The notes below the pieces were generated by a model. It did not search any database and was not told the DNA's origin. It saw only the letters and a program-made list of their open reading frames with translations. From Rhizobium albus (GTDB taxonomy: Bacteria; Pseudomonadota; Alphaproteobacteria; Rhizobiales; Rhizobiaceae), in assembly GCA_030160035.1 (NCBI GenBank), contig BSNO01000003.1, forward strand, positions 1,518,380-1,582,379: 64,000 nt of DNA, read 5' to 3'. This document shows, in pieces, positions 35,852 to 39,781 of this stretch. Each line of letters opens with the position of its first letter. The stretch's first letter is position 1. The translations under genes were made by a program, and so were the position numbers.

Positions 35852-38053
35852 TCAGAACTCGGAAACGCCGCCGATCGACCAGAAGAAGGTCTCGCCGGAG
35901 GAATCGTCCACGCCGTCATTGTCGGTGACGACGAAGGCTTCCCCGCTCGCGTCCACGGCAAAGCCTTCCACCTTGTCGACGATGTAGCCGTTGTATGCAG
36001 CAAGACCCGGAATGAAGTCGTGGACTTCTTCCTTGGCGACCACGGGCAGTTCTCCGCTTAGTTCGGCGCCTGCAAGCTCGGCCACCGGTACGCGGTAGAG
36101 CTTCTTCAGCTCGGCTGCCGCACCAATCTGGTTGTCGCGCTCGACGATGTAGACATGCTCACCGTGCAGCGTGATTTCGGACAGGCCGACCCAGCCCTCG
36201 CCCTTCGCTTCCAGCGGATAGTGAACGGCTGCCCACTCGCCCGAAGCCGGCGTATAGGAAACCAGCTTCACCATGCCTTCCGGATCGTTGCCCCACTCGC
36301 GCTGGATGGCGATCCAGAGCGTCCCGTCGATCATCGTGATGCCTTCGGCGCCGGACCGCGTGGCACCCTCGAGCAGTGCTTCAGGGAAGAGGACTTCCTC
36401 CTGGATCGCACCCTCGGCGTTCACGCGATAGATCGCATGCGGAATGCCCTCATCGGCATCACCCTCATTGGCGAGCCAGAAGCCGCCCTCGCCGTCTGCG
36501 ACGATGCCTTCCAGATCCATGTTTTGCGCGGTTTCGCCATCGCGGGTGATCGTGATGGCATCGGTGATCTGAGCAGGCGTCACGCTGGCATCGATCACAT
36601 ACATGCGCGGCTGGGCAGCGAAGACGGAATCGCTGACAGCATAGAGGCGCCCGGCTTCGGACGGATCGGCAGCGAGGCCCGACAACGCACCGAAAGCGAT
36701 CGGCAGTTCGTTCTCGTCGCGCGTGGAGACGATCGTCGGGTACTGGGCGGCACCCTCGGTGCGCTCGAAGATCATGACATGCGCACGCACGCCACCGTCT
36801 TCGATGAGGTCGACTTCGTTGGCGACGGCGAAAAGGTTGCGCTCGGGGATCGCAACGATGCCTTCCGGCGAGATGCCCGAGGGCAGGATCTGAAGAAGCT
36901 CAGGCGCAGCATCTGCACCGTTGTCGCGATAGACGCCAACGACCGAACCACGCTCGGACAAAGGCAGGATCAGCGTTTCGTCGCCGAAGCGGGCGACTTC
37001 CATGCCCTCCGGCTCGATGCCCTTGGCGTCCGAACGACCGTCGGGATAGTGGCCGAGGAGCGCCACTTCGTGCTCGAAGCTGTTGCCGCTCTCATAGAGC
37101 ACTTCGCCCATCTTGTTCATGATGGTGAAGCCACGCGAACCGCCCTCATAGTCGCCTTCATTGGCGATGGCGAAGCGGTCATTGTCCAGCCACTGGATCG
37201 CATCCGGCTCGCGCTTCACGGCCGTCGCCGAGCCGGAGAAATCGAACGCACCGTCGTCTTCGGTGTCGATGCCTGTCAGGTCCACCGCACCAGCGGAGAA
37301 ATGCGCGGTCACGGTGCCATCGGCAGCGTTGATGATCGCGATATGGTTGTTTTCCTGGAGCGTCACGGCAAGTTCGTTGGCTTCGTTGAAGTCGACGAAT
37401 TCCGGCTCCGGATCTTCAGGCGCAATTTCGGCGAGGCCCGTCAGGTCCACCGTGATCATCGCATCGCAATCCGGCACGCCATCGGTCAGCGGGAAGATTT
37501 TCACGTCCCCGGCAGGCATCTGCGGGATGACGCCGTCGTTCAGGTCCTCGTCACGCTGGTTCTCGATGGCGACCGCAGCGAACGTACCGTCCGGTGATAC
37601 TGCGGTGGAATCAGGCTGACCGCCAAGATCGCACTGCGCTTCCATCGTCTGCGTCGCGATATCGACGACGGCCAGGAAGCCCGAAGGCTGCGTCAGGTCT
37701 TCGGTCGTGTTGACGCCGACCAGCACCTTGGAGCCGGCAACGGAAACGGCCGTTGGCTCGCCACCGTCCATCGCGAGGAAGCCGCCTGCCACGGGAGCGG
37801 CGGCGTCGGTAATGTCGATGAAGCCGATGCCACCTGCCGGGCTGTCCGAGTAGATCAGCATCATGCCGTCTTCGGTGGCCGTGATGATCTCGGCGGAAGA
37901 CGGCGCGTTGACGTCTGCGTCTTCCGGCTTGTTGTCGACGACCGGGAAGGACGCGATGCGGTTGAAGTTCATGGCTTCCTGCGCCCACGCACCGGTGGTG
38001 GTCAGCAGGGTGCCGGCAAGCAAGGTCATTGCAAAATGTCTGGTGGTCGTCAT
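35852..38053 (-). CDS. Secreted esterase-like activity of phytase family protein
   Basis: A 733-residue protein with a Sec signal peptide (about 1-25, ending TGAWAQ) and a beta-propeller-type body with many aspartate/glutamate-rich turns, probably calcium-binding. The second half (about 400-725) corresponds to the esterase-like-phytase domain, with AFGALSGLAADPSEAGRLYAVSD, MDLEGIVADGEGGFWLANEGD and VEGFAVDASGEAFVVTDNDGVDD. The first half has choice-of-anchor/lactonase-like repeats. The ATG at 38053 follows GGAGGGG. A perfect Pho box lies 61-78 bases upstream, so expression under phosphate starvation and release of phosphate from organic esters is the best inference. The actual substrate is untested. 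Confidence 0.87.
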   Translation of the reverse strand: MTTTRHFAMTLLAGTLLTTTGAWAQEAMNFNRIASFPVVDNKPEDADVNAPSSAEIITATEDGMMLIYSDSPAGGIGFIDITDAAAPVAGGFLAMDGGEPTAVSVAGSKVLVGVNTTEDLTQPSGFLAVVDIATQTMEAQCDLGGQPDSTAVSPDGTFAAVAIENQRDEDLNDGVIPQMPAGDVKIFPLTDGVPDCDAMITVDLTGLAEIAPEDPEPEFVDFNEANELAVTLQENNHIAIINAADGTVTAHFSAGAVDLTGIDTEDDGAFDFSGSATAVKREPDAIQWLDNDRFAIANEGDYEGGSRGFTIMNKMGEVLYESGNSFEHEVALLGHYPDGRSDAKGIEPEGMEVARFGDETLILPLSERGSVVGVYRDNGADAAPELLQILPSGISPEGIVAIPERNLFAVANEVDLIEDGGVRAHVMIFERTEGAAQYPTIVSTRDENELPIAFGALSGLAADPSEAGRLYAVSDSVFAAQPRMYVIDASVTPAQITDAITITRDGETAQNMDLEGIVADGEGGFWLANEGDADEGIPHAIYRVNAEGAIQEEVLFPEALLEGATRSGAEGITMIDGTLWIAIQREWGNDPEGMVKLVSYTPASGEWAAVHYPLEAKGEGWVGLSEITLHGEHVYIVERDNQIGAAAELKKLYRVPVAELAGAELSGELPVVAKEEVHDFIPGLAAYNGYIVDKVEGFAVDASGEAFVVTDNDGVDDSSGETFFWSIGGVSEF

Positions 38054-38113
38054 GAGCCCCTCCAATCGGACATCGCGCGTCGATCGCGCCGTGCCTGCTC
38101 ATGCAATGTGTCG

Positions 38114-38131
38114 ATGACAGTGGGATGACAG
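38114..38131 (-). promoter_or_regulatory. Pho box (PhoB-binding site) upstream of the phytase-like gene
   Basis: Read on the minus strand this is CTGTCAT-CCCA-CTGTCAT, an exact repeat of the 7-bp PhoB half-site with a 4-bp spacer, 61-78 bases upstream of the start codon. That is a normal activating position, where it would replace the -35 element. Confidence 0.88.
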
Positions 38132-38245
38132 AGAGAGGTCAGGTGACCCCGGCGGCGCGAGGGGGCAAAGGCGCCCCTGAAATAATGTGGTTGATCGGGC
38201 GATCGGGGGTGCCCGCCCCGGCCTTCAGATGCTATGCGCCCCGCA

Positions 38246-38263
38246 CTGTCACAAAACTGTCAT
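38246..38263 (+). promoter_or_regulatory. Pho box immediately upstream of the PiT transporter start
   Basis: CTGTCAC-AAAA-CTGTCAT is one mismatch from the ideal Pho box. It ends only 12 bases before the ATG at 38276. This is too close for a normal PhoB-activated promoter with a leader, so repression of a promoter overlapping or upstream of it is the likelier action. Confidence 0.82.
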
Positions 38264-38275
38264 GAACGGGCAAGC

Positions 38276-39781
38276 ATGGCCAAGAGCGCTCTCGACAAGG
38301 ACCTGAACAAGGTCGTCAACCTGGAAACGGCGACCGGAGACCTCTCCAGAAGCCTAGCTTTTCCAGGGATCGCGCTCGTCTTCCTGCTCGGCGCCATGGT
38401 GGTTGCGGCATTCTATGCCGTCGAAGGCCCGCTCAGCTACCTCGTCATCATCGCGTCCGTCATCGCCGGTTACATGGCGCTCAACATTGGCGCGAACGAC
38501 GTTGCCAACAATATGGGACCGGCTGTCGGCAGCCGGGCACTCACCATGGCCGGCGCGATCGCAATTGCGGTCGTGTGCGAAAGTGCCGGCGCGTTGCTCG
38601 CGGGCGGCGATGTCGTCAAGACCATCTCGAGCGAGTTGCTGCTGCCAGCCGTTCATCTCGAAACGGTGGACTTCATCGTCGTGATGACGGCCGCCCTGCT
38701 CTCCTCCGCCCTGTGGATCAATCTCGCCACCTATCTCGGAGCACCCGTCTCCACGACCCACTCCGTCGTCGGCGGCGTCATCGGAGCTGGCGTCGCGGCG
38801 GCCGGCTTCAGCGTTGTCGCATGGCCCGTGCTGGCGACCATCGTCGCGAGTTGGGTCATCTCGCCGGTGCTCGGCGGCGTCATGGCCGCCGGTGTGCTGG
38901 CTGTCGCCAACGCGACCATCTTGGAACGGGAAGACAAGATCAAAGCGGCCCGCGTCTGGGTGCCGGTTCTCATCTCCGGCATGGCCGCCGTCTTTGCCAT
39001 GTATCTCACGATCAAGGGATTGAGCCGGATCTGGAGTGCCAGCCCGCTCCAGGTCCTGATGCTCGGCGCCGTCTTCGCGGTCATCGGCTGGATGCTGGCG
39101 CGTCCGTGGGTGATGCGCCGGTCGATCGGGCTGGAGAACCGGTCCAAGAGCATCAACGGTCTCTTCCGCCTGCCCTTGATCTTCGCGGCGGCGCTTTTGT
39201 CCTTCGCCCACGGCGCCAATGATGTCGCCAATGCGGTCGGGCCGCTCGCCGCGATCGTTGCGGCAGCCGGCAGCGGCTCGACCGATGTCGCCGCTGTCGC
39301 CCTTCCGCTGTGGGTGCTGGCGATCGGCGCGGTCGGCATCGCGCTCGGCCTTGCTTTGTTCGGTCCGCGGCTGATCAGGCTCGTCGGTGAAAAGATCACC
39401 AAGATGAACGAGATCCGCGCCTATTGCGTCGCCTTCGCCGCAGCAACCACCGTTCTCATCGCTTCCTGGCTTGGACTGCCGGTGTCCTCGACGCACATTG
39501 CCATCGGCGCCGTCTTCGGCGTCGGCTTCCTGCGCGAGGCGACGTCGAACCGCGGCGTGCGCAATCCGGCCGTCCAGCCCTATTCGCTCTTCCTGAACAC
39601 CGACCGCCTCAACAAGACTCCGGAAGAAGCACTCGCCAATTTCCAGAAGCGCGAACGCCGTCGGCTTGTGCGCCGTCAGCACGGCCTGCAGATTGCAGCC
39701 GCCTGGGTGATCACCGTTCCGGCGGCCGGTCTCCTGTCCGCCCTGCTCTACTGGCTGATCGGCCTTCTGATCGTGGCCTGA
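38276..39781 (+). CDS. pit: Inorganic phosphate transporter, PiT family
   Basis: Low-affinity metal-phosphate:proton symporter of 501 residues. Two PiT signature repeats are visible, each with GANDVANNMGPAVGSRAL-like sequence (about 78-95 and in the second half at FAHGANDVANAVGPLAA). About ten to eleven hydrophobic helices are interrupted by a cytoplasmic loop around 235-260, and a basic C-terminal region (FQKRERRRLVRRQHG) precedes the last helix. The conserved STTHS and SSTHI motifs after the signatures are intact. There is no PhoU-like (DUF47) partner gene next to it, unlike many pit operons. It shares its control region with the divergent phytase-like gene. Confidence 0.95.
   Translation: MAKSALDKDLNKVVNLETATGDLSRSLAFPGIALVFLLGAMVVAAFYAVEGPLSYLVIIASVIAGYMALNIGANDVANNMGPAVGSRALTMAGAIAIAVVCESAGALLAGGDVVKTISSELLLPAVHLETVDFIVVMTAALLSSALWINLATYLGAPVSTTHSVVGGVIGAGVAAAGFSVVAWPVLATIVASWVISPVLGGVMAAGVLAVANATILEREDKIKAARVWVPVLISGMAAVFAMYLTIKGLSRIWSASPLQVLMLGAVFAVIGWMLARPWVMRRSIGLENRSKSINGLFRLPLIFAAALLSFAHGANDVANAVGPLAAIVAAAGSGSTDVAAVALPLWVLAIGAVGIALGLALFGPRLIRLVGEKITKMNEIRAYCVAFAAATTVLIASWLGLPVSSTHIAIGAVFGVGFLREATSNRGVRNPAVQPYSLFLNTDRLNKTPEEALANFQKRERRRLVRRQHGLQIAAAWVITVPAAGLLSALLYWLIGLLIVA

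Follow-up and report, generated by a model that had tools for sequence, protein, structure and literature searches.

A divergent spacer between a phytase-like gene and a PiT phosphate transporter gene carries two conserved Pho boxes and is a probable two-way phosphate starvation switch

PhoB-activated promoters of the phoA layout carry a same-strand 7-4-7 direct repeat with the -10 element located about 10 nt downstream. The closest described counterparts of the locus studied here are found in Sinorhizobium meliloti, for which the initial annotation had named PhoB repression of a low-affinity pit system; lower pit expression on starvation is stated in PMC3131613 and PMC8829014. According to the available text of PMC3131613 (citing Bardin et al.), the orfA-pit operon is repressed on phosphate starvation and its Pho box, in contrast to the majority of boxes, is located immediately before the putative translation start, while in the available text of PMC8829014 pit1 is named among the most repressed genes. 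The same text assigns SMc00620, called a phytase-type phosphodiesterase, to a co-expression group shared with phoB. That pit is repressed and that a phytase-like gene responds to starvation is thus known, each separately. For E. coli, the available portion of PMC10294691 reports no roadblock effect at three tested genes with internal PhoB sites and describes pitB as not being a PhoB target.

The window, a stretch of 64,000 nucleotides of Rhizobium albus DNA (genome G000), contains a phytase-like gene on the minus strand (35852-38053, 733 aa) and a divergently oriented PiT-family phosphate transporter gene on the plus strand (38276-39781, 501 aa; PF01384 PHO4/PiT, E 1.2e-102), separated by a spacer of 222 nt (38054-38275). 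The spacer was scored for the Pho box consensus CTGTCAT-N4-CTGTCAT, with the reversed pattern as control. On the strand of the phytase-like gene, a pair of CTGTCAT-type repeats with a spacing of 11 bp forms a perfect match at 38114-38131 (CTGTCATCCCACTGTCAT, 0 mismatches), the end of which is 60 nt from the ATG. The box of the PiT gene is located on the plus strand at 38246-38263 (CTGTCACAAAACTGTCAT, one mismatch) and ends 12 nt from the ATG at 38276. The divergent region of 222 bases, the coordinates, letters and mismatches of both boxes and the 12-nt distance of the plus box had all been given correctly in the initial annotation. Sites with at most one mismatch are found three times in the whole 3.97-Mb genome, and two of these are the spacer boxes. 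When up to two mismatches were allowed, 14 sites were found in the whole genome against 7 for the reversed control, and weaker genomic sites therefore carry little meaning. In 20,000 shuffles of the spacer, which like those of the PiT leader test described below preserve base make-up only, one site with at most one mismatch arose in 2 shuffles and two such sites in none.

The sole other site of the genome with at most one mismatch (TTGTCATCGTCCTGTCAT, G000:C1:584281-584298, L002:1501-1518) lies 81-98 nt upstream of an MFS transporter gene, within the 3' end of a Na+/H+ exchanger gene. Compared by site and not by gene, its counterpart is the same in genome G001 and similar in genome G002. A possible third 11-bp unit adjoining the minus box (38125-38142, minus strand, two mismatches) was also considered, and a three-unit minus-strand box was dropped because the extra unit is unconserved, being absent from both G001 and G002.

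The genus was sampled with three genomes, the window's own (G000) as well as G001 and G002. Absence of the boxes from relatives with the same gene pair had been named in the initial annotation as grounds against its reading; both Pho boxes are present in all three genomes. The distance of each box to its own ATG is fixed in the three genomes (60 nt for the phytase-like gene, 12 nt for PiT), whereas the gap between the boxes amounts to 114, 113 and 123 bp and much of the mid-spacer is altered. Each box is thus tied to its own gene, since the own-gene distance is constant while the intervening DNA drifts. The plus-strand PiT box of G002 is a perfect consensus, and G001 and G002 each harbor three sites with at most one mismatch, two of them in this spacer, against 0 for the control. 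Judged by sequence, the two Pho boxes of the spacer are a real, conserved pair.

We consider it probable that this spacer acts as a two-way starvation switch: the phytase-like gene would be activated, and the PiT promoter blocked, by phosphorylated PhoB. Since the two boxes persist while the rest of the spacer drifts and a box occurs at most phytase-like orthologues, it is highly improbable that neither box matters much, with PhoB binding and the transcriptional effect being small or absent. Many E. coli PhoB sites are transcriptionally inert, as stated in the available part of PMC10294691, though these lie inside genes, whereas the plus box coincides with the predicted start site. A different alternative would be that the minus box alone serves its own gene directly and that PhoB at the plus box assists the phytase-like promoter from a distance, for example by looping. 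As the inter-box gap differs by about one helical turn between the genomes, contact between the boxes is possible and their phasing may be kept. However, the exact 12-nt placement of the plus box relative to PiT in three of three genus genomes argues against such a role, as do the strands of sites at orthologues and the PiT leaders of other lineages presented below, and we regard it as quite unlikely.

The activating half of the proposed switch concerns the phytase-like gene. Its product contains a PF13449 Phytase-like domain at aa 453-713 (E 3.1e-52; 178.7 bits versus a Pfam curated cut-off of 27.6) and, as judged by eye, a signal-peptide-like N-terminus. The protein model is all-beta with a mean pLDDT of 85.4, and its N-terminal half aligns with seven-bladed propellers; a comparison of the protein with PDB sequences yielded no match at E 0.01. 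A catalytic role could not be drawn from the structure and was dropped, as the fold matches are generic propellers and no phytase is among the matches listed; the VIA-align rows comprise mostly residues 22-433, so that the Phytase-like domain (453-713) is barely probed by them. Upstream of the gene, a Shine-Dalgarno-like GGAGGGG was read from the sequence at 38057-38063 (minus strand), and a candidate -10 element, CATGAG, is located at 38098-38103 (minus strand), 10 nt past the box (+11 to +16).

A phytase-like match was found in 77 of 200 genomes searched (own included), and the upstream regions of 70 were read, leaving out seven partial, broken or weak matches. Sites with at most one mismatch were detected in 24 of these 70 regions (genus included) compared to 0 for the reversed pattern, with at most two mismatches in 41 compared to 8, and with at most three in 56 compared to 16. 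Outside the genus, 53 of 67 orthologues carry a same-strand site with at most three mismatches and 14 carry no such site. Within 350 nt upstream of the orthologues outside the genus, 75 sites are on the strand of the gene and 0 on the opposite strand, which speaks against an auxiliary plus-box site for the phytase-like promoter; the best site ends 31-131 nt upstream of the start. About 10 nt past the box a weak -10-like element is apparent: of 52 orthologues aligned on the last box unit, 37 have an A at +12, and the CATGAG of the window's gene is in register with it. Because of this pattern of upstream boxes, strand and -10-like element across orthologues, it is very likely that the phytase-like gene is PhoB-activated family-wide, with or without an adjoining PiT gene. 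Membership of the gene in the Pho regulon, which had initially been put forward as an inference, is thereby backed by comparative evidence, and the phytase-like activation half of the proposed two-way switch is strongly supported.

The PiT gene of the window is the only PiT match in G000 among the matches listed. A PhoU_div (OrfA-type) match was found in none of G000, G001 and G002, so the locus is not an orfA-pit operon, though it may work like one. No promoter was detected in the spacer by a plain sigma-70 scan. An extended -10 element of PiT, TG-C-TATGCG (TGCTATGCG), is predicted at 38230-38238 on the plus strand, where related leaders show TGNTA, and transcription is predicted to start near 38245. 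Among 47 PiT leaders with at least 60% identity, which are related rows and not independent, 25 show TGNTA between -50 and -34, about 45 nt ahead of the start; the adjacent window yielded 9, and eight windows between -200 and -65 yielded 0-4. The plus box begins 7 nt past this -10 element and would therefore cover the predicted PiT start site, in agreement with the initial view that its position fits repression.

The plus box is in activating orientation, and some PiT genes of other lineages have same-strand boxes at a distance of 76-108 nt that look activating. Both genes might accordingly be activated by PhoB, with the plus box driving PiT from an unseen promoter in an ordinary divergent starvation-induced module. 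We hold this to be unlikely, as a -10 element at the activating distance (10 nt past the plus box) would coincide with the PiT start codon, transcription then starting inside the gene, whereas the coding start from the PiT ATG is conserved in relatives and the conserved TGNTA element precedes the box. It is thus improbable that the plus box activates full-length PiT, and for a box over the predicted PiT start, blocking is likelier than activation. The PiT repression half of the proposed two-way switch is well supported.

To place the PiT box among other lineages, 90 PiT matches were fetched out of 112 listed at E 3.4e-112 or better, the remaining 22 including truncated, more distant and second copies. 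A Pho-box model was derived from 38 phytase boxes of genomes outside the genus and applied to 133 of 170 PiT leaders; dropped were those with an alignment start after residue 4 and one duplicate genome. A leader box (-50 to +5, p ≤ 0.01) was detected in 19 of 133 leaders, where about 1.3 were expected, and 114 fall short of p 0.01 in this interval. The 19 matches comprise the three genus genomes, nine Devosia loci, the order-mate G124, the MAG L026, L038 and four scattered weak matches (L107, L176, L206 and L229) that are possibly due to chance. All 11 boxes of the Devosia loci, G124 and L026 are on the opposite strand, while that of L038 is on the same strand, directly past a TGCTA element. 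As such PiT leader boxes occur in loci where a phytase-like gene was not found, they too argue against the plus box being an accessory of the phytase-like promoter, and their recurrence fits a blocking role of the plus box in the two-way switch. Outside the genus, no box is present at the PiT genes most closely related to that of the window, those of G033 (71%) and G053 (65-66%). On a quick PiT tree of 85 of 109 proteins, in which the distal-box loci L182, L193 and L223 are not included, the leader box requires at least six state changes in separate clades, and G033, the genus's nearest relative on the tree, is without a leader box.

The distal stretch from -160 to -51 reached p ≤ 0.01 in 24 of 133 PiT leaders and thus more often than the leader itself. 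Many of these distal boxes are on the same strand and far ahead of the promoter (Parvibaculum, -83 to -98; some Rhizobiaceae, -76 to -108), an arrangement that suggests activation or a different type of control. PhoB control of PiT would therefore not be uniformly repressive, and it is chiefly this finding that speaks against repression as a general rule.

Several further features of PiT upstream regions were observed. At the Parvibaculum-type loci L042, L045, L047, L052 and L079, the box ends about 83-98 nt from the start, upstream of a TGNTA-type element; it consists of same-strand Pho repeats, in some loci as a triple array, and its regulatory sign may oppose that of the window's box. A palindrome-like element, e.g. 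TTGTGACGAAAACGTCACAA, is located upstream of PiT at L014, L024, L010 and L036 (Pelagibacterium and one Devosia), where a leader Pho box was not found, and may serve another regulator. The PiT and orfA boxes are richer in A/T inside the box than the phytase boxes. An A/T-rich box spacer as a mark of repression was nevertheless rejected, because the distal same-strand PiT boxes are A/T-richer too and the pst boxes, which are expected to be activating, average 2.75 A/T of 4.

The orfA leaders were analyzed at 21 of 24 loci, the start being doubtful in the clipped L290 and L293 and a few bases off in L294. A box was found in 7 of the 21, five on the opposite and two on the same strand, ending 14-54 nt from the assigned start, and no box was found in 14 of 21. 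Boxes near the start codon thus reappear in further PiT leaders and in some orfA-pit leaders. For pst, 20 of 58 listed matches were included; a site with at most two mismatches was present in 8 of 20 regions, and all nine sites are on the same strand, the one at L319 being far from the position of the other pst sites. Comparing the strands of the pst sites with those of the orfA and PiT leaders, activating boxes look one-way and pit-leader boxes orientation-free, in what are few independent lineages. It is conceivable, though we advance it only tentatively, that PhoB operators arose repeatedly over a conserved TGNTA PiT promoter in either orientation, that activating boxes are strictly one-way, and that in this genus such an operator became combined, in divergent arrangement, with an activating box to give a two-way switch.

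When listings of 200 genomes were inspected by eye, adjacency of the phytase-like and PiT genes was seen only in G000, G001 and G002. Elsewhere, among the matches listed, the shortest distance between the two genes on a shared contig is about 19 kb (G124), and no phytase-like match was found at other PiT loci (L009-L118, flanks up to 6 kb). In G033, a YkuD-domain gene is divergent to PiT in place of the phytase-like gene. The PiT leader element was found with at most three mismatches in 39 of 394 genomes of the family and free of mismatches in this genus only. A second element resembling the PiT leader box is present elsewhere in both other genus genomes, at G001:C1:3360427-3360450 and G002:C18:1423123-1423146 (ACGTCACAAAACTGTCATGAACTG and ATGTCACAAAACTGTCATGAACTG). 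No description of a divergent phytase-like/PiT pair was found in titles and abstract openings of mostly non-subscription literature. As far as these literature searches show, both the union of the pair in a single spacer and the recurrence of boxes in single-gene PiT leaders are new.

PhoB of G000 scored 340.6 bits and is the only match above the family cut-off among the matches listed. Its gene is close to pstC and a second permease gene, and its DNA-binding segment RTVDVHxxRLRKA is common to E. coli PhoB. In the pst-phoB region of G000 (L274:1843-1871), three weak 11-bp-spaced Pho units with three mismatches per pair were noted, and a similar array is present in G001 and G002.

In the proposed two-way switch, RNA polymerase would initiate PiT transcription from the extended -10 at 38230-38238 as long as phosphate is plentiful. 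When phosphate is scarce, PhoB bound to 38246-38263 would cover about +1 to +19 and stop PiT initiation, and PhoB bound to 38114-38131 would contact RNA polymerase at the -10-like element 10 nt downstream. On starvation, scavenging would thus be turned on and low-affinity uptake off, with the Pst system taking over. From the boxes and their positions we infer opposite regulation of the phytase-like and PiT genes. That such regulation explains their co-location, as had been suggested, is plausible, but co-location is not required for both responses, because according to the available text of PMC8829014 S. meliloti shows them at separate genes. If the proposed switch is true, one regulator would turn scavenging on and uptake off from a single spacer of 222 bases, the sign being set by box position, and the spacer would offer a compact promoter pair for testing this position-sets-sign rule. 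Beyond orfA-pit, PhoB repression of low-affinity uptake would then also apply to single-gene PiT transporters in at least two alphaproteobacterial lineages.

As in S. meliloti orfA-pit (SMc02862-SMc02861), a Pho box is located a short distance upstream of the translation start at this PiT transporter locus. In contrast to orfA-pit, the PiT of the window is a single gene of 501 aa with a same-strand box over its predicted start, has a divergent phytase-like neighbor and belongs to a genome without a PhoU_div match. The phytase-like protein resembles S. meliloti SMc00620 in being a rhizobial phytase-like protein, a likeness drawn from the published description of SMc00620. The Devosia-type PiT leaders (L013, L015, L017, L021-L023, L025, L032 and L033, and the order-mate L095) are similar in that most have the box between a TGNTA-type -10 and the start codon. 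Their boxes, unlike that of the window, are on the opposite strand, some of them overlapping the start codon, and no phytase-like match was found in their flanks (up to 6 kb; 1.5 kb for L095); in the genome of L095, a phytase-like gene is located about 19 kb from PiT. Finally, the minus box resembles PhoB-activated promoters of the pst and phoA type in its 7-4-7 repeat and its -10-like element about 10 nt downstream, whereas the plus box, unlike those of classical PhoB-activated promoters, lies downstream of the predicted -10 element.
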